In this document: positions 2,812 through 30,903 of the stretch, piece after piece
Position numbering within the stretch: the first letter of the stretch is position 1
How the letters are laid out: the number at the start of each line of letters is the position of its first letter
Source of the DNA: Cytophagales bacterium
GTDB lineage: Bacteria > Bacteroidota > Bacteroidia > Cytophagales > Thermoflexibacteraceae
Reading direction: 5' to 3'
Assembly: GCA_013299115.1 (NCBI GenBank)
Contig: JAAFKA010000003.1
Location: 185,394-249,393 of the forward strand
Length of the DNA: 64,000 nucleotides
Position numbers and translations under genes: made by a program
The notes under the pieces: model-generated
What the model was told of the DNA's origin: nothing
The model's input: only the letters and a program-made list of their open reading frames with translations
The model's database searches: none

Positions 2812-5800
2812 ATGAAAACAAAACTACTACTTACAACCTATTTTTTGCTCACCACGCTGCACTTATTGGCTCAGGGCAGTTTGCCTATCAAAAAGTTTTC
2901 CTATCGTGAAATGGGGACACAACGAGCTATTTGGTCTTTTTGGCAAGACCGAAACGGCTTTATGTATGTAGGCAGCAGTGGCGTTTTGAGCCAATATGAT
3001 GGCAAACAATGGCGAAAAGTAAAGCACGAAACCGACTCTATCAATCCGACGATATTTGTCCGTAAGTTTTACGAAGACAGCACAGGCAGACTCTACTGCT
3101 TTGGCGATAATACGATTGGCTATCTTTCTACCAACGCCAAAAGTGAACTCATTTTTAAATCACTCAAAGATAAATTGCCAAAAAAGTACCAAAATTTTAC
3201 CATTGGCACAACTATTCTTCCTCTCAAAGATGGTTTGTATTTTTGCAGTGTAGAAGGCATTTTTCGTTGGAATGGCAGAGAATTTGCCGTTTTTCCCCCG
3301 CCGCACACCTCTTTTACCAGAGCCTACGAAGCCTACGGCAAAATCTATGCAAGGGAAAATGGTTGGGGAATTTTGACCCTTACCAACGACAAATTTGAAT
3401 ATATAAAAGGTAGCAATTTTTTTGCAGGCGAAAGAATAAGTATGGTAAGAGCCTCCACCAACGGCAAAATTTTGATTGCCTCGCGTGGGCAAGGTTTGTA
3501 TAGCTATAATCCTGCCGAAACAGACAGCACCAAAGCCTTTGCACGCCTACCCACGCCCATAGATGAGGTGATGATAAAAAACGGAGTTTACGACTCTGAA
3601 CTGTTGCCTGATGGTACTATTTTGCTTAGCTTGTTTACCAATGGCGGCGTTTTCCAAATAGACAAAGAAGGGAAATTTTTGCGGTGGGTCTATAAAACGA
3701 CTGATTTTGTTACGACTACCTATCTCGACCGAACAGGGCAGCTTTGGTTAGGCACAGGACAAAATCAAGTCTTGCGACTGAACTACTACGCACCTTATAC
3801 GCAGTTTACACCCGAAGACTTGGATAATCAACCCCTGAGTTGGTTTACCAGATTTGAGGGCAAAATCTATGCAGGTGGTTTTGCAAAATTGGCTGTTTAT
3901 AAAAACGGAAGTTTTCGTAGCCTTGCCAATTCGTCTATTCAATCCTTGAGTTTTGTGCAACCCACTATCAATGGCAGAGAAATGCTATTGGTTGGGGCTT
4001 TTGACGGCGTGGTACAGATAGAAAACGAACAAGTGAAACCTATCTATAAAGGACAACCTGTAAGTAATATGCTCTTGCACCCAAAATTTCCAAACTTAAT
4101 TTTTGTTTGGGACAGGGAGGGCTGGCAAACCATACGCTATGAAAACGGAATTTGGAAATTCGACCAAAAATTGACTGCTTTTAAAGAACAGCTATCGAGC
4201 CTTTTACCGCCACTCACCAATGGAAGTATTTTTAATTATGAAAAAGCTACCAATATTGTTTGGGCAAGACGTAGAGATGGAAATATTGTTGCAATCACTT
4301 GGAAAGACTACACCAAACCCAACGAACCCACTTTTGAAACTATTGAAATGCCTCAAAAAGAAAGCAATGCTGGCGTGCAGGTTATTTACAAAGGTCAGGC
4401 TATTTTTGCAACCAATACAAACTATTTTACTTACAATCTTAAAAAGAAACAATTTGAAGTATTTGAATTGTTTAAACACTATCTGTTGAAGTCCACAGAC
4501 TTGCAGTCCGTAGGCGGAATTACAAACGTAGGCGACAGTCTTTTTTACTTTCCAATTAATGAAAATAATACTGATTTTCAGGATTTTAAGAGGTTAGATA
4601 TTGCCAAAGTACAAGCTAATGGCACTTTGGCAATAGACTCCACTACACATACTTATTTTCCACAAATGCCTGCCAATGGGGGATATTTTGAAGGGGACAC
4701 CATACTCTGGTTAGCAATGAATGAAGTCTTGTTGCGTTATGATTTGCGAAAAAAATTGCCCCAGCCCAAAAGTTTTAACGTCTATGTTCGGCAGTTGAAA
4801 ACACCAAAAGAAATGGTTTGTGGCGGTGTATTTTGTACCAATGACTCCATTGCCAACTACCGCCAACATTCAAACGAAGTGCTTACGCTAAACTACAAAG
4901 ACAATGACCTCGAATTTAGTTTTGCTGCACCTTATTTTTTAGACGAACACAACACGCAATACAGCTATTTTTTGCAAGGTTTTGACCATGCAGAATGGTC
5001 GGCTTGGACTACCGAAAACAAAAAAGAATATACCAACTTGCGCGAGGGTAACTATGTTTTTCAGGTAAAAGCCAAAAATATTTTTGGGCAAGAAACCGAA
5101 ATTGCCACCTACCAATTCACTATTTTGCCACCCATTTATCGTACTTGGTGGGCATACTGTTTGTATGTGTTGGCTGCAATTTTGCTGATTGTGGGTTTGG
5201 TTTACGCCAATTCACGCCGTTTGTTGGCTGCCAAAAAGCATTTGGAGGAAATGGTAAGGCAACGAACAGCCGAAATAGAAAAACAAAAAGCCGAAATAGA
5301 AGCCCAACGTGATAATTTGGTGGAGTTAAACGAAGAAATCAACCAACAAAGAGAGGAAATTTTATTGACAGCCGAAAACCTAAAACTTGCAAACAATGAA
5401 GTTTCTAAGAAAAACGAGGACATTGTGGCAAGTATCAATTACGCCCAACGGATTCAGGCAGCTATGTTGCCTTTTGAGGGTCGGGTGACAGAAAGCATAG
5501 GCAAAGACAACTTTTTTGTTCTCTACAAGCCCAAAGATATTGTTTCGGGAGATTTTTATGTGTTTGAGCAAATAGACCACAAACTTTTTGTGGCAGTGGC
5601 AGACTGCACAGGGCATGGCGTGCCTGGTGCTTTTATGAGTATGATTGGCAACCAACTGCTGCACGAAATTGTGGTAAGAGATGAAATTCACCGCCCCGAC
5701 CTTGTGCTGAACAAACTGCACATAGAAATCCGCAGGGTGTTGCAACAGGAGCAAACAGGCACGCAAGACGGTATGGACATAGCCTTAGTGGTGATTGATT

Positions 5801-6216
5801 GCAAGGAAGGTTATTTTGAGTATGCAGGGGCAATGAACCCCATGTATTACGTGCAAGGCGAAACACAACCTACTTTGCAAGAGCTAAAAGCTACCAAAAA
5901 ACCAATAGGAGGCAGGGCTTTTGACCACGAAACTGAAAGGATTTTTGCTTACCACACCGTATATTTTAACCAACAGCCTACTACTTTGTACTTGTTTTCT
6001 GATGGCTATTGTGACCAGTTTGGTGGCACAGAAAAACGCAAATTTATGGCAAAAAGGTTTAAAGAAACTCTACTTTCGGTTTATGCCCAACCGCTGGAAA
6101 CACAAAAACAGCACCTCGACCAGACTATTAAGGCTTGGATACAAGAAGGAAAAGAAAAGCAAATTGACGATATTTTGGTAATGGGCGTAAAAATGGATTA
6201 CTTGTTAAGTAAGTAG
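2812..6216 (+). CDS. propeller-sensor SpoIIE/PP2C-type phosphatase
   Basis: A 1134-residue signalling protein. From the N-terminus it has a signal peptide (KTKLLLTTYFLLTTLHLLAQ), a long beta-rich region with two-component-regulator propeller character, a Y_Y_Y-like domain near residues 690-765, one membrane segment near 778-800 (WWAYCLYVLAAILLIVGLV), a charged coiled coil, and a C-terminal SpoIIE/PP2C serine phosphatase. The phosphatase shows ADCTGHGVPGAFMSMIG, with metal-binding Asp near 931, and a final DDILVMG. The layout parallels hybrid propeller sensor kinases with the kinase replaced by a phosphatase. The start at 2812 is preferred because the 37 preceding codons only translate the repeat at 2735-2795. 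The last codons (AGT AAG TAG) coincide with the left end of a palindromic element. Confidence 0.88.
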   Translation: MKTKLLLTTYFLLTTLHLLAQGSLPIKKFSYREMGTQRAIWSFWQDRNGFMYVGSSGVLSQYDGKQWRKVKHETDSINPTIFVRKFYEDSTGRLYCFGDNTIGYLSTNAKSELIFKSLKDKLPKKYQNFTIGTTILPLKDGLYFCSVEGIFRWNGREFAVFPPPHTSFTRAYEAYGKIYARENGWGILTLTNDKFEYIKGSNFFAGERISMVRASTNGKILIASRGQGLYSYNPAETDSTKAFARLPTPIDEVMIKNGVYDSELLPDGTILLSLFTNGGVFQIDKEGKFLRWVYKTTDFVTTTYLDRTGQLWLGTGQNQVLRLNYYAPYTQFTPEDLDNQPLSWFTRFEGKIYAGGFAKLAVYKNGSFRSLANSSIQSLSFVQPTINGREMLLVGAFDGVVQIENEQVKPIYKGQPVSNMLLHPKFPNLIFVWDREGWQTIRYENGIWKFDQKLTAFKEQLSSLLPPLTNGSIFNYEKATNIVWARRRDGNIVAITWKDYTKPNEPTFETIEMPQKESNAGVQVIYKGQAIFATNTNYFTYNLKKKQFEVFELFKHYLLKSTDLQSVGGITNVGDSLFYFPINENNTDFQDFKRLDIAKVQANGTLAIDSTTHTYFPQMPANGGYFEGDTILWLAMNEVLLRYDLRKKLPQPKSFNVYVRQLKTPKEMVCGGVFCTNDSIANYRQHSNEVLTLNYKDNDLEFSFAAPYFLDEHNTQYSYFLQGFDHAEWSAWTTENKKEYTNLREGNYVFQVKAKNIFGQETEIATYQFTILPPIYRTWWAYCLYVLAAILLIVGLVYANSRRLLAAKKHLEEMVRQRTAEIEKQKAEIEAQRDNLVELNEEINQQREEILLTAENLKLANNEVSKKNEDIVASINYAQRIQAAMLPFEGRVTESIGKDNFFVLYKPKDIVSGDFYVFEQIDHKLFVAVADCTGHGVPGAFMSMIGNQLLHEIVVRDEIHRPDLVLNKLHIEIRRVLQQEQTGTQDGMDIALVVIDCKEGYFEYAGAMNPMYYVQGETQPTLQELKATKKPIGGRAFDHETERIFAYHTVYFNQQPTTLYLFSDGYCDQFGGTEKRKFMAKRFKETLLSVYAQPLETQKQHLDQTIKAWIQEGKEKQIDDILVMGVKMDYLLSK

Positions 6217-6280
6217 ACAAATTTATCGGACACTTTAAAAGTGTCCGATAAATTAGCCCAATGTTCCAAAAGTTTACTTA
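6207..6280. repeat. diverged copy of the 83-bp palindromic element; shared terminator
   Basis: AAGTAAGT at the left is followed by the perfect palindrome TTATCGGACACTTTAAAAGTGTCCGATAA split as TTATCGGACACTTT / AAAAGTGTCCGATAA at 6223-6251, and the right end reads AGTTTACTTAG. It matches the left half of the elements at 30929-31011 and 49379-49461. The stop codons of both convergent genes lie in its outer ends, and the hairpin probably terminates both transcripts. Confidence 0.75.
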
Positions 6281-15539: not shown

Positions 15540-18500
15540 CTATTTCACACTTTTTCCCACCACTTCGATTTCCTCTTCTGTCAAATTGTATAATTCATAA
15601 ACCAATTTATCTATTTGATTTTCAAGGCTTTGCGTATCTTTTTCTTGGGTTTTTGCCAATAAAATTTTATCAACTAATTTGATAAAAGGTTTTTGGGCAT
15701 CAGCAGAAATCTCTGGAATTGGAAAACTTTTAATGTCATTTACCAAAATCTTAGGAAAAGCACCTTTTGTAGCTTTTGGCGAAGAATTAAAATGCAAAAA
15801 TGTTGCTAATTTTGAGTTTAAAATAGCTAATAAAGCCTTAATATGCAATAAACCATTGGGATTTTTCAAAATAACAATAATCGCAGGGTCATAATAACTT
15901 TCTTCTTTAGTGTAGCCCACAAAAATTCTTGGATTTGTAATTTCACGAATTAGTAGCCTTTCACCCTTAAAATATTTAGGTTTTCGAGGATTTGCAAGTC
16001 CGTCACAATAGTTTATATATTCTTTTTCATTCCATTTTACCGCATAATGTGTTACATCACGTCCCCAAAGAAATTTTTTCCAACCAACTTTTGACTCTAA
16101 ACTGTGAAAAATCCTATTTTCGATAGTAGCTTCATCTTGACCTTGATATTTATCATAAGCAATTAAACCTTGACTTATATCAGGAAAATAGTCTTTCAAA
16201 AGCCCTTTATCCCGTCTTATTTTTCTGGTTAATTCAATAGTTTTTGCACTCAATTTGAAAACCAAAGCCCAATTTTGGTTATTTTCCAATAAAACTTCCT
16301 GCGTTGTAGTGCAAAAATCTCTATCAATTAAATCGTCAAAAGATTCTATTTTTGCAGTCGGTTTATACAAAATTTCATTTTTAGAAACTTCATTTGTCAA
16401 AAAAGTTAGCACATTTCGCACTGTTGCCTTGCCTTTAAAAACATCAACAGCAGTGCAGTCTAATAATTCGTGAATATTCCAATTTTCAAAAAGCTGTTCT
16501 CTATATTCTTTTGCAAAAACATTGAATAAAATTGTGTTCGGAATAATAAAAGCATTTAATCCTTTTGGTTTCAAAAGTTGCTTACTCCGATTGATAAAGA
16601 AGTAATAAATTTCAAAATCTGGCACTTTTCCCAAGTTTTCCAACAATTTTATCCGCAAATTTCCTTGTTGCGAAACACCATAAGGCGGATTCCCAATTAC
16701 CACATCAAAGCCCAAAAACTCCCCATCATCACTCAAAACTTCGGGAAATTCAAACCGCCATTCAAAAGCCCATTCGTAAGCAATGTTATTTTTTACTGCC
16801 TCCAATGCTTCACTCAATTCTTGCTTTTCAGCTTGCAATTTCTTAATTTTATCTCTTTCTACGCCATTTCCTTCGCCGTTTCCCTCTTTTTTGTCTGTAC
16901 CTGTATTAAAAAGGTCGTCTGTTTCTCTCAAAAACAACTCTGCCTCAATCCGTTGCAAACGCAAAATGCGAGGGTCAGAAAATTTGGCAATTTCAGTCCT
17001 AAAACCATTTTTAATTTCTGCAATAGCTTGTTCAATTTTGTACTTTTCTTCGATATTTCTTACATTCTTGTAATTGTTTACCAACTTGCGATAATCCTCC
17101 ACTTTGTACTTTATTTTTTTCAAAACTTGTTTCAAATCTACATCAGTTGCAAAACGACTTATCAAGCTATTGCCAACTTTTATATTAATGTCAATGTTGG
17201 GTAGAGTTTGCAGCCCCCCAGCCCCCGAAGGGGGAGTTAGCCCCACCCCAACCCTCCCCAAAGGGGAGGGAGTTTTAAATCCTGCACGTAAAACTCCCCC
17301 TTCGGGGGTTGGGGGGCTTGGCATTATGTAATACGCATTTTTCAATAACTCTATCCACAACCGCAAACGACAAATTTTTACAGAATTTGGGTTAATATCA
17401 ACCCCAAATAAGCAATTTTCTATGATAGTTTGCTTCTCGTGAAACAAAGTTTCTTGCAATAGCTGAATTTCATTCACAATTTTCGTCTTCCGATACACAA
17501 AAAAACTATCGTTGTAAATATCTTTTATTTCCAATTCGTCATTGACAACCGTAATTTTGTAATCTGTTATTCTCCTGTTATTCCTATCAAATAAAGCACC
17601 TAATTCACTCTTGATTGCAATAATTTCATTGAGAGCAGACACCAAAAAATGCCCTGAACCAACAGCAGGGTCGCAGATTTTTAGCGTATTGATAATGGCG
17701 TTTGCTTCTCTTTTATCCTCAATTTTTTCTTTTAATTCCTCAAAACTTACACAGTTCCATTGCTTAATCTCGTTAAATTTTTGCACCACCGCCAGCCGAA
17801 TACTTCGCCTACACATATACATTGTGATACTTGCAGGCGTAAAAACGGCACCATCTTTATAACCATTGATTTTTTCAAAGATTTTGCCCAAAATAGCAGC
17901 ATTAATAACAGGTTCGTTGTCTTGTGAAACCTCTTGTTTTTTGCCTTCACTACTAAAATTATAAGAATTAAGGAAACGTAAGAAATAATCCAAAGTTGTC
18001 AATCTTTTGGCGTGGTTTTGCAAAACAGTCGAAGAAATAACTGTAATTATATTTCCATTTCCAAGTGCATTGATGTTGATAAATTGTTGTTCCAATTCAG
18101 AAATTTCAAACAAAGAACTGTTGAGATAAGGCACAAATTGGTATTTTTCTTGCAAACCAGTTTCTCTTTCGTGTTCTTTGATAGCCAAAACTTTGTGAAA
18201 TAAGATAAAAACTTCGCTAAAATTTGGCAAAATTTGGAGATTGAGAAAGGCAAATTCAGCCCCCCTACCCCCCGAAGGGGGATTTTTTGCTCCCCCTTCG
18301 GGGGGTAGGGGGGCTGAATTAAAATTAATCAGTTGGCTTTCTAATAATTTGAGAAACAACATCCGATTTACCCAAGTGATAGCTAATTCTAAGGCTGCGT
18401 GAAAAATTTGCTCCTCTTGTGTGTGTCCATAAACCGTTTTATCGAGATTTAAAGTCTTTTTTTGCGAAGCTATTTCGTGCATAGTCAATTCCAAAAAAGA

Positions 18501-19466
18501 ACCTATGTCTCTGTTATTTGCTTTGCGTTGAATAATAGTTTTGCCACTTTTTGTAATTTCCTCCACACCCAAAATGTGCAATAATTCCAAATAAAAAGGC
18601 TCATTGAGTTCATTGCTATCGATGACATCTGTACTTTTCAACAAATACTGTGGCGAAAAAACCTTATACAGAAACTTCAATTCTTTGAAATTGTCTTTTT
18701 CTGCAAAAGTTTCAAAATCTGTTTCAGAAGTAAAAATTTCTTGTGTTTTGATTTCTTGTGTTTTGGGGTTCTCAAACCCCAAAGTCCGTTGTGGGTTTGA
18801 GAACCCACAAGCACTTAACTCATTGAGATTAAAATGCACACAAGTCAAACTTACCAAGTCTTTAAGACTTGGTAAGTTTATAAAGTTGCTAACTTGTGTA
18901 TAAAAATCATTAGTAGAAGTGCCAACTTGCTGTTTTGCGTGCCAATTTTCAAAGGCTTTTTTGAGTTCAGATTGGTAAAAAATGCGGTGAAATTCGGTGG
19001 CATCAAAAATAAAAAAATCTTCGGTATTGGTTATCACAATACGTTTGAGGTCGAAATTCTTTTTTTCTACAATTTCCGTAAAAAAGTAAGTAACAGCCTG
19101 TTGCAAACATTTCTTGTTAAAATCTGCTTGCGAAATCATTGCAACCTTGTCCAATGGACTTTTTACCTCGCACAAAACAGCAGTATTTGTCTGAATATCA
19201 ACGCCTTGCGAAATTACTAAATCTGCTTCTCCTTTTTTATACGGTTTGTTGCCCACATAATTTTTTGCATAAAAACTACTTTGCAAAAACTTTTTGAGGG
19301 CAGCCTCAAAAGCCTTTTCATTCTTATTTTCCTGTGCTTTTAGCTGCGTGGTGGTTGCCAAAAATTCTTGCAAAGCAGGAAAAAACACTTGTGTAAACTG
19401 TGGGAACAGAATAACAAGGGGCTGGGCATTGAAAATGTCTTTGGTTTCGGTAAATTGGAGTTGCAT
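15540..19466 (-). CDS. Eco57I-like single-chain restriction enzyme and adenine methyltransferase
   Basis: A 1308-residue type IIG-like protein. The N-terminal nuclease module has the PD-(D/E)XK pattern: Asp82 in GEADLVI, then Glu100 and Lys102 in LCEVKSP. The methylase core has motif I (DPAVGSGHFL) and motif IV (NPPYG), the N6-adenine type. The C-terminal third is the TaqI/Eco57I-type specificity region and ends in LVYELYNLTEEEIEVV. It would cut and methylate one DNA site. It is longer than usual partly because at least four palindromic blocks are translated in frame (see 17210, 18253, 18770 and 18849). No frameshift is seen, so it may still be functional. No separate partner gene is present. 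Confidence 0.9.
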   Translation of the reverse strand: MQLQFTETKDIFNAQPLVILFPQFTQVFFPALQEFLATTTQLKAQENKNEKAFEAALKKFLQSSFYAKNYVGNKPYKKGEADLVISQGVDIQTNTAVLCEVKSPLDKVAMISQADFNKKCLQQAVTYFFTEIVEKKNFDLKRIVITNTEDFFIFDATEFHRIFYQSELKKAFENWHAKQQVGTSTNDFYTQVSNFINLPSLKDLVSLTCVHFNLNELSACGFSNPQRTLGFENPKTQEIKTQEIFTSETDFETFAEKDNFKELKFLYKVFSPQYLLKSTDVIDSNELNEPFYLELLHILGVEEITKSGKTIIQRKANNRDIGSFLELTMHEIASQKKTLNLDKTVYGHTQEEQIFHAALELAITWVNRMLFLKLLESQLINFNSAPLPPEGGAKNPPSGGRGAEFAFLNLQILPNFSEVFILFHKVLAIKEHERETGLQEKYQFVPYLNSSLFEISELEQQFININALGNGNIITVISSTVLQNHAKRLTTLDYFLRFLNSYNFSSEGKKQEVSQDNEPVINAAILGKIFEKINGYKDGAVFTPASITMYMCRRSIRLAVVQKFNEIKQWNCVSFEELKEKIEDKREANAIINTLKICDPAVGSGHFLVSALNEIIAIKSELGALFDRNNRRITDYKITVVNDELEIKDIYNDSFFVYRKTKIVNEIQLLQETLFHEKQTIIENCLFGVDINPNSVKICRLRLWIELLKNAYYIMPSPPTPEGGVLRAGFKTPSPLGRVGVGLTPPSGAGGLQTLPNIDINIKVGNSLISRFATDVDLKQVLKKIKYKVEDYRKLVNNYKNVRNIEEKYKIEQAIAEIKNGFRTEIAKFSDPRILRLQRIEAELFLRETDDLFNTGTDKKEGNGEGNGVERDKIKKLQAEKQELSEALEAVKNNIAYEWAFEWRFEFPEVLSDDGEFLGFDVVIGNPPYGVSQQGNLRIKLLENLGKVPDFEIYYFFINRSKQLLKPKGLNAFIIPNTILFNVFAKEYREQLFENWNIHELLDCTAVDVFKGKATVRNVLTFLTNEVSKNEILYKPTAKIESFDDLIDRDFCTTTQEVLLENNQNWALVFKLSAKTIELTRKIRRDKGLLKDYFPDISQGLIAYDKYQGQDEATIENRIFHSLESKVGWKKFLWGRDVTHYAVKWNEKEYINYCDGLANPRKPKYFKGERLLIREITNPRIFVGYTKEESYYDPAIIVILKNPNGLLHIKALLAILNSKLATFLHFNSSPKATKGAFPKILVNDIKSFPIPEISADAQKPFIKLVDKILLAKTQEKDTQSLENQIDKLVYELYNLTEEEIEVVGKSVK
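17210..17322. repeat. G/C-rich nested palindrome inside the restriction gene
   Basis: Outer arms (CAGCCCCCGAAGGGGGAGTT and, inverted, AACTCCCCCTTCGGGGG) enclose an inner CCTCCCC/GGGGAGG palindrome. It is translated in frame on the minus strand as a Pro/Gly-rich insert (PSPPTPEGG...PPSGAGG). The base composition contrasts sharply with the AT-rich gene. It lies just after the methylase motif I region. Confidence 0.85.
18253..18320. repeat. 30-bp perfect inverted repeat inside the restriction gene
   Basis: Arms 18253-18282 and 18291-18320 are perfect complements built on CCCCCCGAAGGGGGA. The block is read in frame as SAPLPPEGGAKNPPSGGRGAEF-like text (APLPPEGG, PPSGGRG). It shares the CCCCGAAGGGGG core with the block at 17210-17322. 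Confidence 0.9.
18770..18810. repeat. TTCTCAAACCC palindrome pair inside the restriction gene
   Basis: GGGGTTCTCAAACCCC is followed 17 bases later by GTGGGTTTGAGAACCCAC, its partial inverse. The same GGGTTCTCAAACC text forms the 50-bp tandem repeat at 32706-32805. It is translated in frame as FSNPQRTLGFENPK. Confidence 0.75.
18849..18879. repeat. ACCAAGTCTTTAAGACTTGGT palindrome inside the restriction gene
   Basis: AACTTACCAAGTCTT and its inverse form a perfect palindrome read in frame as LPSLKDLVSL. A related CCAAGTCTTTAAGACTTG sits inside the element at 20402-20543. Confidence 0.75.
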
Positions 19467-24023: not shown

Positions 24024-24036
24024 AATTTAGTTAAGA

Positions 24037-24090
24037 TTCAACTATTGGCAGGGCTTGCAAATACAACCCATCATGTTTTGTTGAAGTTAT
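24037..24090. repeat. left boundary repeat of the restriction cassette
   Basis: TTCAACTATTGGCAGGG (24037-24053) and TTTTGTTGAAGTTAT (24076-24090) recur in the same order and orientation at 27945-27961 and 28013-28027, just beyond the cassette. The two segments together enclose everything from the methylase to the kinase-like gene. Confidence 0.75.
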
Positions 24091-24173
24091 CGCAACAAAG
24101 TTAAAGATTTTGGGCAAAATTTGCAGCAAATTGCAATTTATTTTGGTAGTTTTACAGTGAGAATACTCAAGCA

Positions 24174-26123
24174 ATGGCAAACGAAAAGAAAACCGATATT
24201 TTTATCAGCAAATTGCTGGATAATGCAAAAATTGACTATACGCCCAATGGGAGTGAGATAAAGGAAATTCAAGATGCTTTGAAAACTGCCTCTAAAAAAG
24301 GCACAGGCAATGCGGGTTTTCCTGAATTTGTGGCAAAAGTCAAGGATTTTATTATTGTCATTGAAAACAAAGCCGAATTAGACAAACAGGCTTTGTATGA
24401 AGATGCGGATAATCAAAAATTAGCAATAGATACAAAAGCAATTACCAATTATGCAGAAAATGGGGCTTTGCACTATGCCAATGAAATTATTGCTAAAACT
24501 AATTTCAAAAAAGTATTTGCCTTTGGTTGTTCGGGCAATGAAAAACACCATATCATCAGACCTTTTTTTGTAGATGAAAAAGGTTATAAACTCCTCGAAA
24601 AAGTAGAAAATTTTGAAAATTTTTCGGAGGCAAACATAGAAAAATATTACAAAGAACAAGTTTTGGGCGAAAAACCACAAGAGGAAAAAGAAAAAGAGGA
24701 AATACTGAAAAAAGCCGCAGACCTACACGAAATGTTGCGTAACTACGGGCAACTCCGAGATACAGAAAAGCCCTTGGTTGTTTCGGCTATCTTGCTGGCG
24801 TTGAGTGAAAAGTCTTTTGCTATTGAGCAACTTACAGGAGATACAGAAAGAAAAGATGGCGAAATTATTTTTGATGCTATCAAAACCTATATGAAAAGGG
24901 TAAAAGTTGAACCCGAAGTAAAAAAAGAGCAACTACTCAATCAATTTAACATCATTAAAGATAGAACTTTGTTGAGCCAAAAAGATGAAAGATTGAAAAG
25001 TGAAGTAGATAAAAATAATTACTTAGAAAAAACGCCGCTGCGATATTTTACAGAGTTTATAGACAAAAATATTATCAAAGCTATTCAAACCAACTTGGCT
25101 GACGATATTTTGGGCAAGTTTTATGGCGAATTTATTAGTTATGGCGGTGGCGATGGGCAAACTTTGGGCGTAATTCTTACGCCAAAACACATTACCGAAT
25201 TGTTTTGCGATTTGGTAGATTTGCAAGCAACAGACAAGGTTTTTGACCCTTGCTGTGGCACAGGTGGTTTTTTGATTTCGGCAATGTCTAAGATGCTCGA
25301 AAAAGCAAGTTCCAATAAAGAAAAAGAGTACATTAAAAAAGAATTGCTGCATGGCATAGAAATACGAGAAGATATGTTTGCCATTGCCACTACGAATATG
25401 ATTTTGAGGGAAGATGGCAAAAGTAAGCTGATAAAAGATGACTTTTTGAGAAAAAGTAGCGAGGAATTGCGAAAACAAAAATATACCGTAGGTTTTGTCA
25501 ATCCGCCTTATTCGCAAGCAAAAGGAAAAGATACTGCCCATTTGTCTGAAATCAATTTTATCAAACATCTTTTAGACTGTTTGGCAGATGGGGCAAGGTG
25601 TGTAGCCATTGTGCCACAGTCGACAATGGTGGGCAAAACCAAAGAGGACAAGGCTATAAAAAAGCAAATTTTAGAAAGCCATACCTTAGAAGGTGTCATT
25701 ACGCTGAACAAAAATACTTTTTATGGCGTAGGTACAAATACTTGTTTGGCTATTTTTACGGCACACAAAGCCCATTCGCCTAAAAAATATTGCAAATTTG
25801 TCAATTTTGACAATGACGGTTATGTAGTAAGCAAACATTTGGGATTGAAACCCACAGAAATTGCAAAATCACAAAAAACATATTTGTTGGATTGTTGGCT
25901 GCATGATGCACCCACAGAAAGCAAATTTATGGTACGAACTACCGTAGAACCCGAAGACGAATGGCTACATTCTTTCTATTATTTTAATGACGAAATACCC
26001 ACAGCACAGGATTTTGAGAAAACCATTGCAGATTACCTCACTTTTGAGTTTTCTATGATTATGCAGGGCAGAGAATATTTGTTTGAAACCAAGCAAACAG
26101 ACGAAAAAAAAAGCCCGAAATGA
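24174..26123 (+). CDS. BcgI-like type IIB restriction enzyme/methyltransferase subunit
   Basis: 649 residues combining a nuclease and a DNA adenine methylase. The N-terminal part resembles the HsdR_N nuclease: PEFVAKVKDFIIVIENK, with Pro50-Glu51 and Glu64/Lys66 as the PD-(D/E)XK core. The methylase has motif I FDPCCGTGGFL and motif IV NPPYSQ. This order and size match RM.BcgI (about 637 residues), whose partner is a separate specificity subunit of about 340 residues, and such a gene follows here with an ATGA overlap. BcgI-type enzymes methylate or cut on both sides of a bipartite site. A type I-like methylase with an inactive nuclease remnant is the alternative. Confidence 0.85.
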   Translation: MANEKKTDIFISKLLDNAKIDYTPNGSEIKEIQDALKTASKKGTGNAGFPEFVAKVKDFIIVIENKAELDKQALYEDADNQKLAIDTKAITNYAENGALHYANEIIAKTNFKKVFAFGCSGNEKHHIIRPFFVDEKGYKLLEKVENFENFSEANIEKYYKEQVLGEKPQEEKEKEEILKKAADLHEMLRNYGQLRDTEKPLVVSAILLALSEKSFAIEQLTGDTERKDGEIIFDAIKTYMKRVKVEPEVKKEQLLNQFNIIKDRTLLSQKDERLKSEVDKNNYLEKTPLRYFTEFIDKNIIKAIQTNLADDILGKFYGEFISYGGGDGQTLGVILTPKHITELFCDLVDLQATDKVFDPCCGTGGFLISAMSKMLEKASSNKEKEYIKKELLHGIEIREDMFAIATTNMILREDGKSKLIKDDFLRKSSEELRKQKYTVGFVNPPYSQAKGKDTAHLSEINFIKHLLDCLADGARCVAIVPQSTMVGKTKEDKAIKKQILESHTLEGVITLNKNTFYGVGTNTCLAIFTAHKAHSPKKYCKFVNFDNDGYVVSKHLGLKPTEIAKSQKTYLLDCWLHDAPTESKFMVRTTVEPEDEWLHSFYYFNDEIPTAQDFEKTIADYLTFEFSMIMQGREYLFETKQTDEKKSPK

Positions 26124-27223
26124 ATTGTGATTTAAAAAGTGTAAAGTGGGGGGAGTTTTTAAAAAGTGTAAAGTGGGGGGAGTTTGTTTTTGAGGAAATA
26201 TTCGAAATTTTTGCTACTCATAGCGGAATTGATAAAAATAAATTAATTCTCAAAAAAGGTAATATTCCCTATATTACCCGAACAGACAAAAATAATGGAG
26301 TAGATTTATTTTTGGGAGAACAAAATAAGACCTATCAATTAGAAAAAAGTAATGTTATTACTATTGGTTTAGATACCCAAACTATTTTTTATCAACCTTG
26401 TCAATTCTACACGGGGCAAAATATTCAAATTTTAAGAAATGAAAATTTAAATTATTTTATTGCCCAATTTTTAATTCCCTTGATAAAAAAACAAATGGTA
26501 AAATTTAATTGGGGTGGAAATGGTGCAACCTTAACAAGACTCAGAAGAAGTAAAATTATATTGCCTACAAATGATGAAGGCACTCCCGATTATGCTTTTA
26601 TGGAGGCGTATATACGTGAGCAAGAACAAGCAAAAAATGATAATTTTTTGAACTATTTGCACAAACGAATAAACGAAGTAAAAGATTTTCAGGAAACTGT
26701 GCCAATGAATGAAAAGGAATGGGGAGAGTTTTACTTAAAAAATATTTTTGCTGATATTCAAAGAGGTAAGAGGTTAAAGAAAGACGACCACCAAAAGGGC
26801 AGATTACCTTATGTGTCTGCTACTGCTATGAATAATGGCGTTGATAGTTTTGTAGGTAATGAAAGCAAGGTAAGAGTTTTTAATAATTGCTTGACGATTG
26901 CCAATAGCGGAAGTGTTGGGGCTACTTTTTATCAACCTTTTTCTTTTGTAGCAAGTGACCATGTTACTAAACTTGAAAATAAAGACTTTGATAGTTTCAT
27001 TTACCTTTTTATTTCGACAATAACCCAAAGATTAGGCGAAAAATATAGTTTTAATCGTGAAATTAACGATAACAGAATACAAAAAGAAAAAATTCTACTT
27101 CCCATCACCTCCACAGGCACCCCCGACTATGTGTATATGGAAAACTATATGAAACAAATAGAATTTGAGAAATTGAGTAGGTATTTGGAGATTAAAAAAG
27201 GTTTTTCTTTGTTGAAAAAATAA
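26120..27223 (+). CDS. specificity subunit with two target-recognition domains
   Basis: 367 residues, overlapping the previous gene by ATGA. Two related halves each run from a WGEF...IF start through a KGNIPYITRTDKNNGVD or KGRLPYVSATAMNNGVD loop to TPDYAFMEAYI or TPDYVYMENYM. These are two TRDs of the BcgI-B/HsdS type, each reading one half of a bipartite site. The N-terminus contains a perfect 27-bp tandem duplication giving LKSVKWGEF twice. The 3' end (27124-27199) is duplicated at 27865-27940 with a different tail beyond it. Confidence 0.87.
   Translation: MNCDLKSVKWGEFLKSVKWGEFVFEEIFEIFATHSGIDKNKLILKKGNIPYITRTDKNNGVDLFLGEQNKTYQLEKSNVITIGLDTQTIFYQPCQFYTGQNIQILRNENLNYFIAQFLIPLIKKQMVKFNWGGNGATLTRLRRSKIILPTNDEGTPDYAFMEAYIREQEQAKNDNFLNYLHKRINEVKDFQETVPMNEKEWGEFYLKNIFADIQRGKRLKKDDHQKGRLPYVSATAMNNGVDSFVGNESKVRVFNNCLTIANSGSVGATFYQPFSFVASDHVTKLENKDFDSFIYLFISTITQRLGEKYSFNREINDNRIQKEKILLPITSTGTPDYVYMENYMKQIEFEKLSRYLEIKKGFSLLKK
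26131..26184 (+). repeat. 27-bp perfect tandem duplication with G6 tracts
   Basis: Two identical units (26131-26157 and 26158-26184), each containing GTGTAAAGTGGGGGGAG, encode LKSVKWGEF twice. Unit gain or loss keeps frame; slippage in either G6 run would not. Confidence 0.95.
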
Positions 27224-27233
27224 CTAAATTTGT

Positions 27234-27893
27234 ATGGACTTTAACGCAATAAAATATGAACTACAAAATATCCTTTGCGGAGAGGGCGAAGTTAGCTATG
27301 GAAAACCTATCCAAGCAGCAGCCTATTTCCTACGAAAAAGCACTGAAACAGGTGCAGTGGCTCAAAGAAATGAGCCAAACAAAGCAGAAGAAACAAAGAG
27401 ATTGATAGAATACATCAACGTAAATCATCTTTGGAACTGTGACATCAACTTTAATCTGTTTTTATCCGAAGGGGCAGAGCAAAGAGTGTATATTAAGGAT
27501 AAAAGCAAAGTTTTGAAACTGAATGATGCTATTTATTATGCGTCTTGGTTAGACTATTTCCATAATTTGCTACTGAATAATTATTTTTTCCCTGACACAG
27601 CTTATAACTTATTAGGTTTTTATAAATCTGATAATGACACATTATATGCATTAGTTGAGCAAAATTATATAGAAGCTACACAGCCTACGGATTTGAGCCA
27701 AGTAAAAGAATTTTTGGTAAGCAACGGGTTTGTAAATAACCGCAACCATGATTATTTTCATTCCGATTTAGGAATTATTTTGGAAGACCTCCATGATGAA
27801 AACGTGCTTACAGCCAATGATGTACTTTATTTTATTGACACTGTTTTCTATATTAAACCTGAAACGACTATGTGTATATGGAAAACTATATGA
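27234..27893 (+). CDS. putative polyvalent-protein-type kinase
   Basis: 219 residues resembling the small Ser/Thr/Tyr kinase-like domain family found in phage polyvalent proteins and in mobile islands. Supporting text is GKPIQAAAYFLRKSTETG at the start, SEGAEQRVYIKDKSKVLKLND (ATP-binding lysine region), LYALVEQ (hinge), LGIILEDLHDENVL (catalytic-loop-like) and FIDTVFYIKPE (DFG-like position, here FID). I recall the family ending at about FYIKPE; the last eight residues here come from the duplicated 3' end of the specificity gene read in another frame. It follows the specificity gene by 10 bases. A regulatory or defence role with the restriction system is inference only. Confidence 0.7.
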   Translation: MDFNAIKYELQNILCGEGEVSYGKPIQAAAYFLRKSTETGAVAQRNEPNKAEETKRLIEYINVNHLWNCDINFNLFLSEGAEQRVYIKDKSKVLKLNDAIYYASWLDYFHNLLLNNYFFPDTAYNLLGFYKSDNDTLYALVEQNYIEATQPTDLSQVKEFLVSNGFVNNRNHDYFHSDLGIILEDLHDENVLTANDVLYFIDTVFYIKPETTMCIWKTI

Positions 27894-27940
27894 AAAAGAT
27901 AGAATTTGAGAAATTGAGTAGGTATTTGGAGATTAAAAAA
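27865..27940 (+). repeat. duplicated 3' end of the specificity gene
   Basis: 76 bp match 27124-27199 with two differences. In the specificity frame it continues past the copy as KRLQLLAGSIDHCQS and a stop, an alternative tail to the GFSLLKK of the intact gene. Confidence 0.92.
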
Positions 27941-27944
27941 CGAC

Positions 27945-28027
27945 TTCAACTATTGGCAGGGTCTATCGACCACTGCCAAAGTTGAAGTCATTTTTACAAA
28001 GTTGAAGTTATTTTTTGTTGAAGTTAT
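27945..28027. repeat. right boundary repeat of the restriction cassette
   Basis: Contains the same TTCAACTATTGGCAGGG and TTTTGTTGAAGTTAT as the left boundary. Between them are an inverse copy (CTGCCAAAGTTGAAGTC) and a further GTTGAAGTTATTTTTT unit, so the segment also folds as a hairpin. It lies between the kinase-like gene and pnp and may terminate both. Confidence 0.75.
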
Positions 28028-30832: not shown

Positions 30833-30903
30833 AGTTGCAAAAACTTATGGTAGAGATGACATCTTTCAAAAAGATGTCATCTCTACCATAAGTTTTTGCA
30901 ACT
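30833..30903. repeat. 34-bp perfect inverted repeat (hairpin H2)
   Basis: Arms 30833-30866 and 30870-30903 pair perfectly around a three-base loop. The inner GATGACATCTT/AAGATGTCATC is shared with hairpin H1 at 12749-12834; the outer stems are unrelated. Confidence 0.9.

Follow-up and report, generated by a model that had tools for sequence, protein, structure and literature searches.

Organization of the R-M locus and its repeat pair

The window, a stretch of 64,000 nucleotides from a Cytophagales bacterium, contains a pair of restriction-modification (R-M) genes followed by a kinase gene that sits between two direct repeats. The genes are termed RM (restriction-methylation), S (specificity) and K (kinase), and the features of the locus are as follows:

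24174-26123, + strand: RM gene, restriction-methylation subunit, BcgI-like type II, 649 aa (Pfam N6_Mtase 2.5e-36; PADLOC REase_MTase_IIG 1.1e-179, residues 1-641)
26120-27223, + strand: S gene, encodes the specificity subunit and its two recognition domains (Pfam Methylase_S 3.9e-40, 2 stretches; PADLOC Specificity_II 1.1e-46)
27124-27199, + strand: repeat copy 1, 3' end of S, encodes the conserved C-terminal helix DYVYMENYMKQIEFEKLSRYLEIKK
27200-27864, + strand: putative inserted unit of 665 bp, leader plus kinase gene minus its native last codons, bounded by the repeat copies
27225-27232, + strand: TAAATTTG, fits the -7 promoter box TAnnTTTG, immediately 5' of the K start codon
27234-27893, + strand: K, stand-alone Kinase-PolyVal gene, 219 aa (PF18762 5.3e-62)
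27865-27940, + strand: repeat copy 2, S tail in a second copy detached from S, 97% identical to copy 1
27941-27990, + strand: dispersed REP-like palindrome with a terminator-like hairpin, ~90 genomic matches

The PADLOC families matched are type IIG for the fused RM gene and type II specificity for the two-domain S, and the pair was therefore assigned to the BcgI-like type II systems. The layout of such systems, a fused nuclease-methyltransferase plus a separate two-domain S, is present, with the putative nuclease part identified by the whole-length PADLOC match. The start of S harbors an exact 27-bp tandem duplication (26131-26184) that repeats the residues LKSVKWGEF. In addition, the window carries a second R-M gene (15540-19466), an Eco57I-like type IIG gene of 1308 aa with a TaqI_C domain. 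In genome G005, locus L054 (1501-3936) encodes RM and a single recognition domain fused into one protein of 811 aa, compared to the separate RM and two-domain S of the window, and a history of splitting or fusion is possible.

The two repeat copies are 76 bp long at a spacing of 741, and both of their differences fall into one codon, which changes from CAA to AAG (Q to K). The preliminary description had reported the length, the two mismatches and the coordinates of this pair exactly; its statement that only a polyvalent-kinase-like gene separates the copies was confirmed as well, K being the single ORF in between, with no recombinase gene. A whole-genome search with 27080-28020 revealed no third copy of the repeat. 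Relative to S, the repeat is located where the second recognition domain ends and beyond, and therefore no recognition domain could be exchanged through it. A phase-variable S locus was rejected on account of this position, with only K between the copies.

Both genes are chimeric at the junctions. The last seven codons of S, GFSLLKK, derive from the leader of K. Alignment of homologue C-termini further indicated that the last eight residues of K, TMCIWKTI, are read out of frame from copy 2; the natural ends of K relatives are short tails such as KPQILWN or KSEIFWK.

A dispersed palindrome follows the second repeat copy

Past copy 2, the S frame reads on to end in ...YLEIKKRLQLLAGSIDHCQS. The sequence 3' of copy 2 forms a hairpin (-34.4 kcal/mol, z -8), the palindrome core of which, ~39 bp in length, has ~90 matches in the genome that occur in pairs and arrays of alternating strand (e.g. 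G000:C18:58950-59792). One palindrome copy adjoins a Y1_Tnp gene (L233), which is one of three Y1_Tnp (REP-associated transposase-like) genes. As this stretch is the hairpin of a dispersed palindrome, the read-through of S is not a designed alternative C-terminus. The earlier observation of a different C-terminus past copy 2 thus stands for the reading frame, but not for a designed alternative end. Moreover, K-less S homologues (G005, G124 and G148) stop 3-5 residues past the position of the repeat end, so neither of the present S tails looks functional.

The block of RM, S and K sits between a degraded (24030-24110) and an intact (27932-28014) copy of the palindrome. These two copies align over ~85 bp with a score of 62, against a shuffle maximum of 45.5, and it is possible that the whole block entered between, or inside, palindrome repeats. 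Another inverted repeat, perfect over 34 bp with a 3-bp loop, lies at 30833-30903 upstream of pnp.

Features of the kinase gene and its distribution

The box TAnnTTTG is a known -7 promoter motif of Bacteroidota. Among 78 K homologues, 53 have it at most 40 nt from the start, compared to an expectation of 2.4, and the unit of K thus consists of a promoter and one gene. The K protein matches PF18762 with 209 bits, far above the cut-off of 27, and residues K95, E184, D185, H187, D188, N190 and D202 are invariant across 24 homologues. Its structure model (pLDDT 86.8, pTM 0.86) matched protein kinases weakly, with a best E of 1.3e-3, and a sequence search found no solved structure of a relative. 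Judging from the conserved core residues and the kinase-like model, K is probably an active minimal protein kinase with its own promoter. The model agrees with the account of Kinase-PolyVal, in the relevant passages of PMC5512222, as a truncated kinase without the C-terminal subdomain.

The closest relative of K, encoded in genome G011, is 86% identical, and homology between the two K loci extends to 27859, just before copy 2. In G011, 17 bp similar to the final part of the S tail are located ~30 bp before the start of K, at about the same distance as in the window. This similarity hints that S and K may have been neighbors before the 97%-identical duplication arose.

The distribution of K is chromosomal. 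No match was found among 72,556 records of plasmids and 50,697 of phages, and 2.9 million viral contigs yielded seven matches, one at 48% and the others weaker or short; a phage or plasmid vehicle was rejected on these grounds. A transposon or insertion sequence was likewise dismissed, given a 665-bp unit with one kinase ORF and no transposase, and a duplication of 76 bp rather than a short one. In-frame stops are present in 16 of the 80 K homologues, which suggests rapid turnover.

Direct repeats around other kinase genes

Relatives of K were gathered from 148 relatives and from a genome contig collection, with 80 of the 480 found there taken in. Direct repeats of at least 40 bp flank 20 of 76 K genes (26%), compared to 9 of 256 control ORFs on the same contigs (p 3e-8) and 8 of 131 lone ORFs (6%; p 8e-5), the latter drawn from the same contigs and chosen for having 40 bp or more of unoccupied sequence to either side; these control sets are small, and the 80 K loci are not phylogenetically independent. 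The repeat has exactly two copies in the locus for 13 of 76 K genes versus 6 of 131 lone ORFs (p 0.005), where two of the six control cases are genes adjoining K (L106 and L082) and in one of the 13 K cases, L132, a part of K is itself copied in tandem. Among the 20 repeat-flanked K genes, seven involve sequences with extra copies nearby. About three quarters of the K homologues have no detectable flanking repeat.

The duplicated sequences lie at unrelated places. They include 64 bp at 95% identity in G021, where a 1209-aa gene ends, as well as 100 bp in G074 and 148 bp in G143, and S tails are found on both sides of K at two further R-M loci, G046/L081 (76%) and L083 (85%). Across K loci, the length of the duplication varies from 42 to 455 bp. 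Neither a common core nor fixed element ends were seen at the insertion margins, which range from a few bp to >400 bp; this absence of a shared end sequence or a fixed margin disfavors a classical element with defined ends. Microhomology is not consistent at the junctions of K insertions, a short repeat occurring at the 3' junction of G407 only. L099 has three copies (4005-4053, 4807-4855 and 6181-6225) of the last part of a type IIG R-M gene, with accessory genes including K in between, which looks like serial insertions with target duplication that are not limited to K.

Empty sites in related genomes

In G021, K is enclosed by the 64-bp duplication in the order tail-K-tail. Its congener G173, in which a neighboring protein is 99% identical, has the 3' end of the upstream gene once and no kinase there; immediately after this gene end comes the sequence found behind the second copy in G021. 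Similarly, K of G407 is enclosed by a ~168-bp sequence in duplicate (97% identity), which mostly comprises the 5' end of a neighboring gene, whereas in its congeners G437 and G438 one gene leads straight into the next with no K between. By sequence comparison, these two empty sites show insertion with target duplication for the K family, with the direction given. Other or dispersed repeats account for part of the repeat excess around K, and the K gene may simply be one that is transferred often; for both reasons, the empty sites provide the strongest support.

The single-copy empty site in a relative applies to K of G021 and of G407, compared to only distant K-less S genes for the window. A close K-less version of its own site was not found. 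The nearest S genes, those of G005, G124 and G148, are 57-65% identical in the best-matching part and occur in other settings, and the contigs of G001, G004 and G007 that carry the neighboring ABC gene show no pnp beside it.

The hemC-hemD junction of a Flavobacterium (L106) contains another ORF together with K, and the end of hemC is duplicated. This duplicated end is missing in 20 Flavobacterium congeners. In one congener, G427, K occupies the same junction without the duplication.

Association of the kinase gene with R-M genes

A protein scan detected an R-M match at 6 of the 80 K loci. In L080 (1-390), a remnant of RM that retains only the N-terminal ~30 and the C-terminal ~45 codons directly precedes K. 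Other RM remnants lie directly before K in G009 (51 plus ~8 codons) and G143 (about the last 24 codons). L104 has a 35-bp RM remnant before K and an S fragment after it, and the remnant in L078 is weak. Judging from the remnants that precede K, the kinase subgroup nearest that of the window has repeatedly settled at the end of this BcgI-like R-M type, the R-M gene often being lost. The internally deleted RM genes directly before K in L080 (1-390) and L051 (7724-8092) belong to two distant genomes, and such genes represent repeated loss of R-M genes beside K.

Proposed origin of the repeat and alternative explanations

The locus is best explained by K having inserted at the 3' end of S and left a 76-bp target duplication, a reading to which we give a probability of about 0.78. 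We propose that a lone kinase gene with its own promoter entered the terminal part of S, the specificity gene of a BcgI-like system, and that 76 bp of the S tail were thereby duplicated directly on the far side of K. S would have lost only its last few codons and come to end in codons of the K leader, whereas K would have lost its own last few codons and come to read into the duplicated S tail. The chimeric state of both genes is what would be expected if K had entered S within its end and duplicated the target, and because the S tail is duplicated, S has kept its full recognition and helix region. By analogy with the scars around other K genes, and given the chimeric ends, the repeat of the window would have arisen in the same manner. 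The preliminary description had proposed that K and its upstream bases came in as a block carrying a copy of the S tail. Entry as a block is upheld by the same scar elsewhere and by the two cases with empty sites, but a carried copy is not needed, as target duplication suffices.

Three routes of insertion are candidates. The DNA may break with a long stagger that is filled in after joining, replication may switch template and resume upstream of the point where it left, or one-sided homologous recombination may be completed by an illegitimate join on the other side. In general, a staggered break or a template switch is favored by the targets of G021 and G407, which are unrelated, whereas the 17-bp stretch of G011 favors one-sided homologous recombination at the locus of the window. 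The last route corresponds to a homology-facilitated exchange, in which a donor S tail with K recombines with the resident S tail and the other side joins illegitimately, so that copy 1 would stem from the donor or be a hybrid, with copy 2 as the resident tail. It is a sub-mechanism that yields the same scar, and we consider it possible though doubtful here. The S-tail-like bases before K in G011 and the S tails on both sides of K at G046/L081 and L083 agree with it, and one-sided homologous integration of this type is documented in passages of PMC3240628. Against it, the duplicated targets of G021 and G407 are unrelated genes with no sign that a donor carried them, and the repeat copies are 97% identical, yet the K protein has diverged by 14% from the nearest relative known. 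An S-gene array, of which copy 2 would be the last piece of a second S gene once located 3' of K, might account for the tail-only S fragments after K in L081, L083, L099 and G031/L040. It is nevertheless improbable, as the start of copy 2 is abrupt and merges with the last part of the K frame, and as a specificity array leaves unexplained why ends of non-S genes are duplicated around K too, namely the 1209-aa gene of G021 and the gene 5' end of G407.

A recombinase encoded elsewhere might also insert K at attachment sites in gene ends, which would fit accessory genes arranged in series with a duplicated upstream-gene end, such as the threefold type IIG end of L099 and the hemC end of L106. The range of repeat lengths, the widely varying margins between repeat and K and the lack of a common sequence seen between loci make such a site-specific cassette very improbable. 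Even less probable is the switch suggested in the preliminary description, in which recombination between the repeats deletes K, changes the C-terminus of S and thereby alters restriction. Two 76-bp direct repeats at 97% identity could in principle recombine at low frequency; however, both recognition domains would stay untouched, the deletion would merely give S the end ...YLEIKKRLQLLAGSIDHCQS encoded by the dispersed palindrome, natural S tails end shortly past the repeat, and no recombinase lies between the copies. Neither a deletion form nor any other sign that the event takes place or matters came up in the sequences analyzed. Since the same scar surrounds related lone kinases in many bacteria, K looks like a self-moving gene rather than a restriction switch. 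By extension, the lone Kinase-PolyVal genes of Bacteroidota might be single-gene mobile units, each a promoter plus an ORF that moves from chromosome to chromosome, duplicates roughly 50-250 bp of target and, with no encoded transposase, is driven by the kinase or by host repair; we regard this generalization as speculative and rather unlikely.

Comparison with known systems

The RM and S genes share the layout and family matches of BcgI-like systems, and K-less homologues exist in G005, G124 and G148. K is not known to be part of the described BcgI-like systems.

According to passages of PMC5512222, stand-alone versions of the truncated Kinase-PolyVal occur in Bacteroidetes, and K, a PF18762 match, resembles these; the sections of that source on stand-alone Kinase-PolyVal were not found to report flanking duplications or single-gene mobility. 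In Arabidopsis, transposed non-transposon genes have direct repeats of the target at their new positions, as compared with the orthologous empty site (PMC2869330). That case differs in being a plant genome, for which excision and insertion by recombination at repeats are discussed (PMC2869330).

The closest parallel is insertion with long target duplication, described for R-M genes, notably in Helicobacter pylori (Nobusato et al. 2000; Furuta et al. 2010, as related in parts of PMC1643837 and PMC3031569). As far as these parts describe it, the K family shares with it a transposase-less gene between long target duplications of variable length, a single copy at the empty site and a link to R-M; in the window, long direct repeats of the target (76 bp, 97%) directly flank the inserted gene. 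K differs from the R-M inserts covered there in being a lone kinase gene of Bacteroidota with R-M genes adjacent only sometimes. As only a kinase lies between the repeats, the insertion of K works like long target duplication but falls outside the described R-M cases.

The movement of small genes between chromosomes without a transposase is poorly understood, and long target duplications have mainly been tied to R-M genes. The kinases provide a different, easily recognized gene family with the same scar in many genera and with empty sites, which makes possible a statistical study of duplication lengths, junctions and preferred targets, and perhaps a reproduction of the event. The scar around K also means that gene ends found in duplicate beside accessory genes are not to be taken as switches by default.
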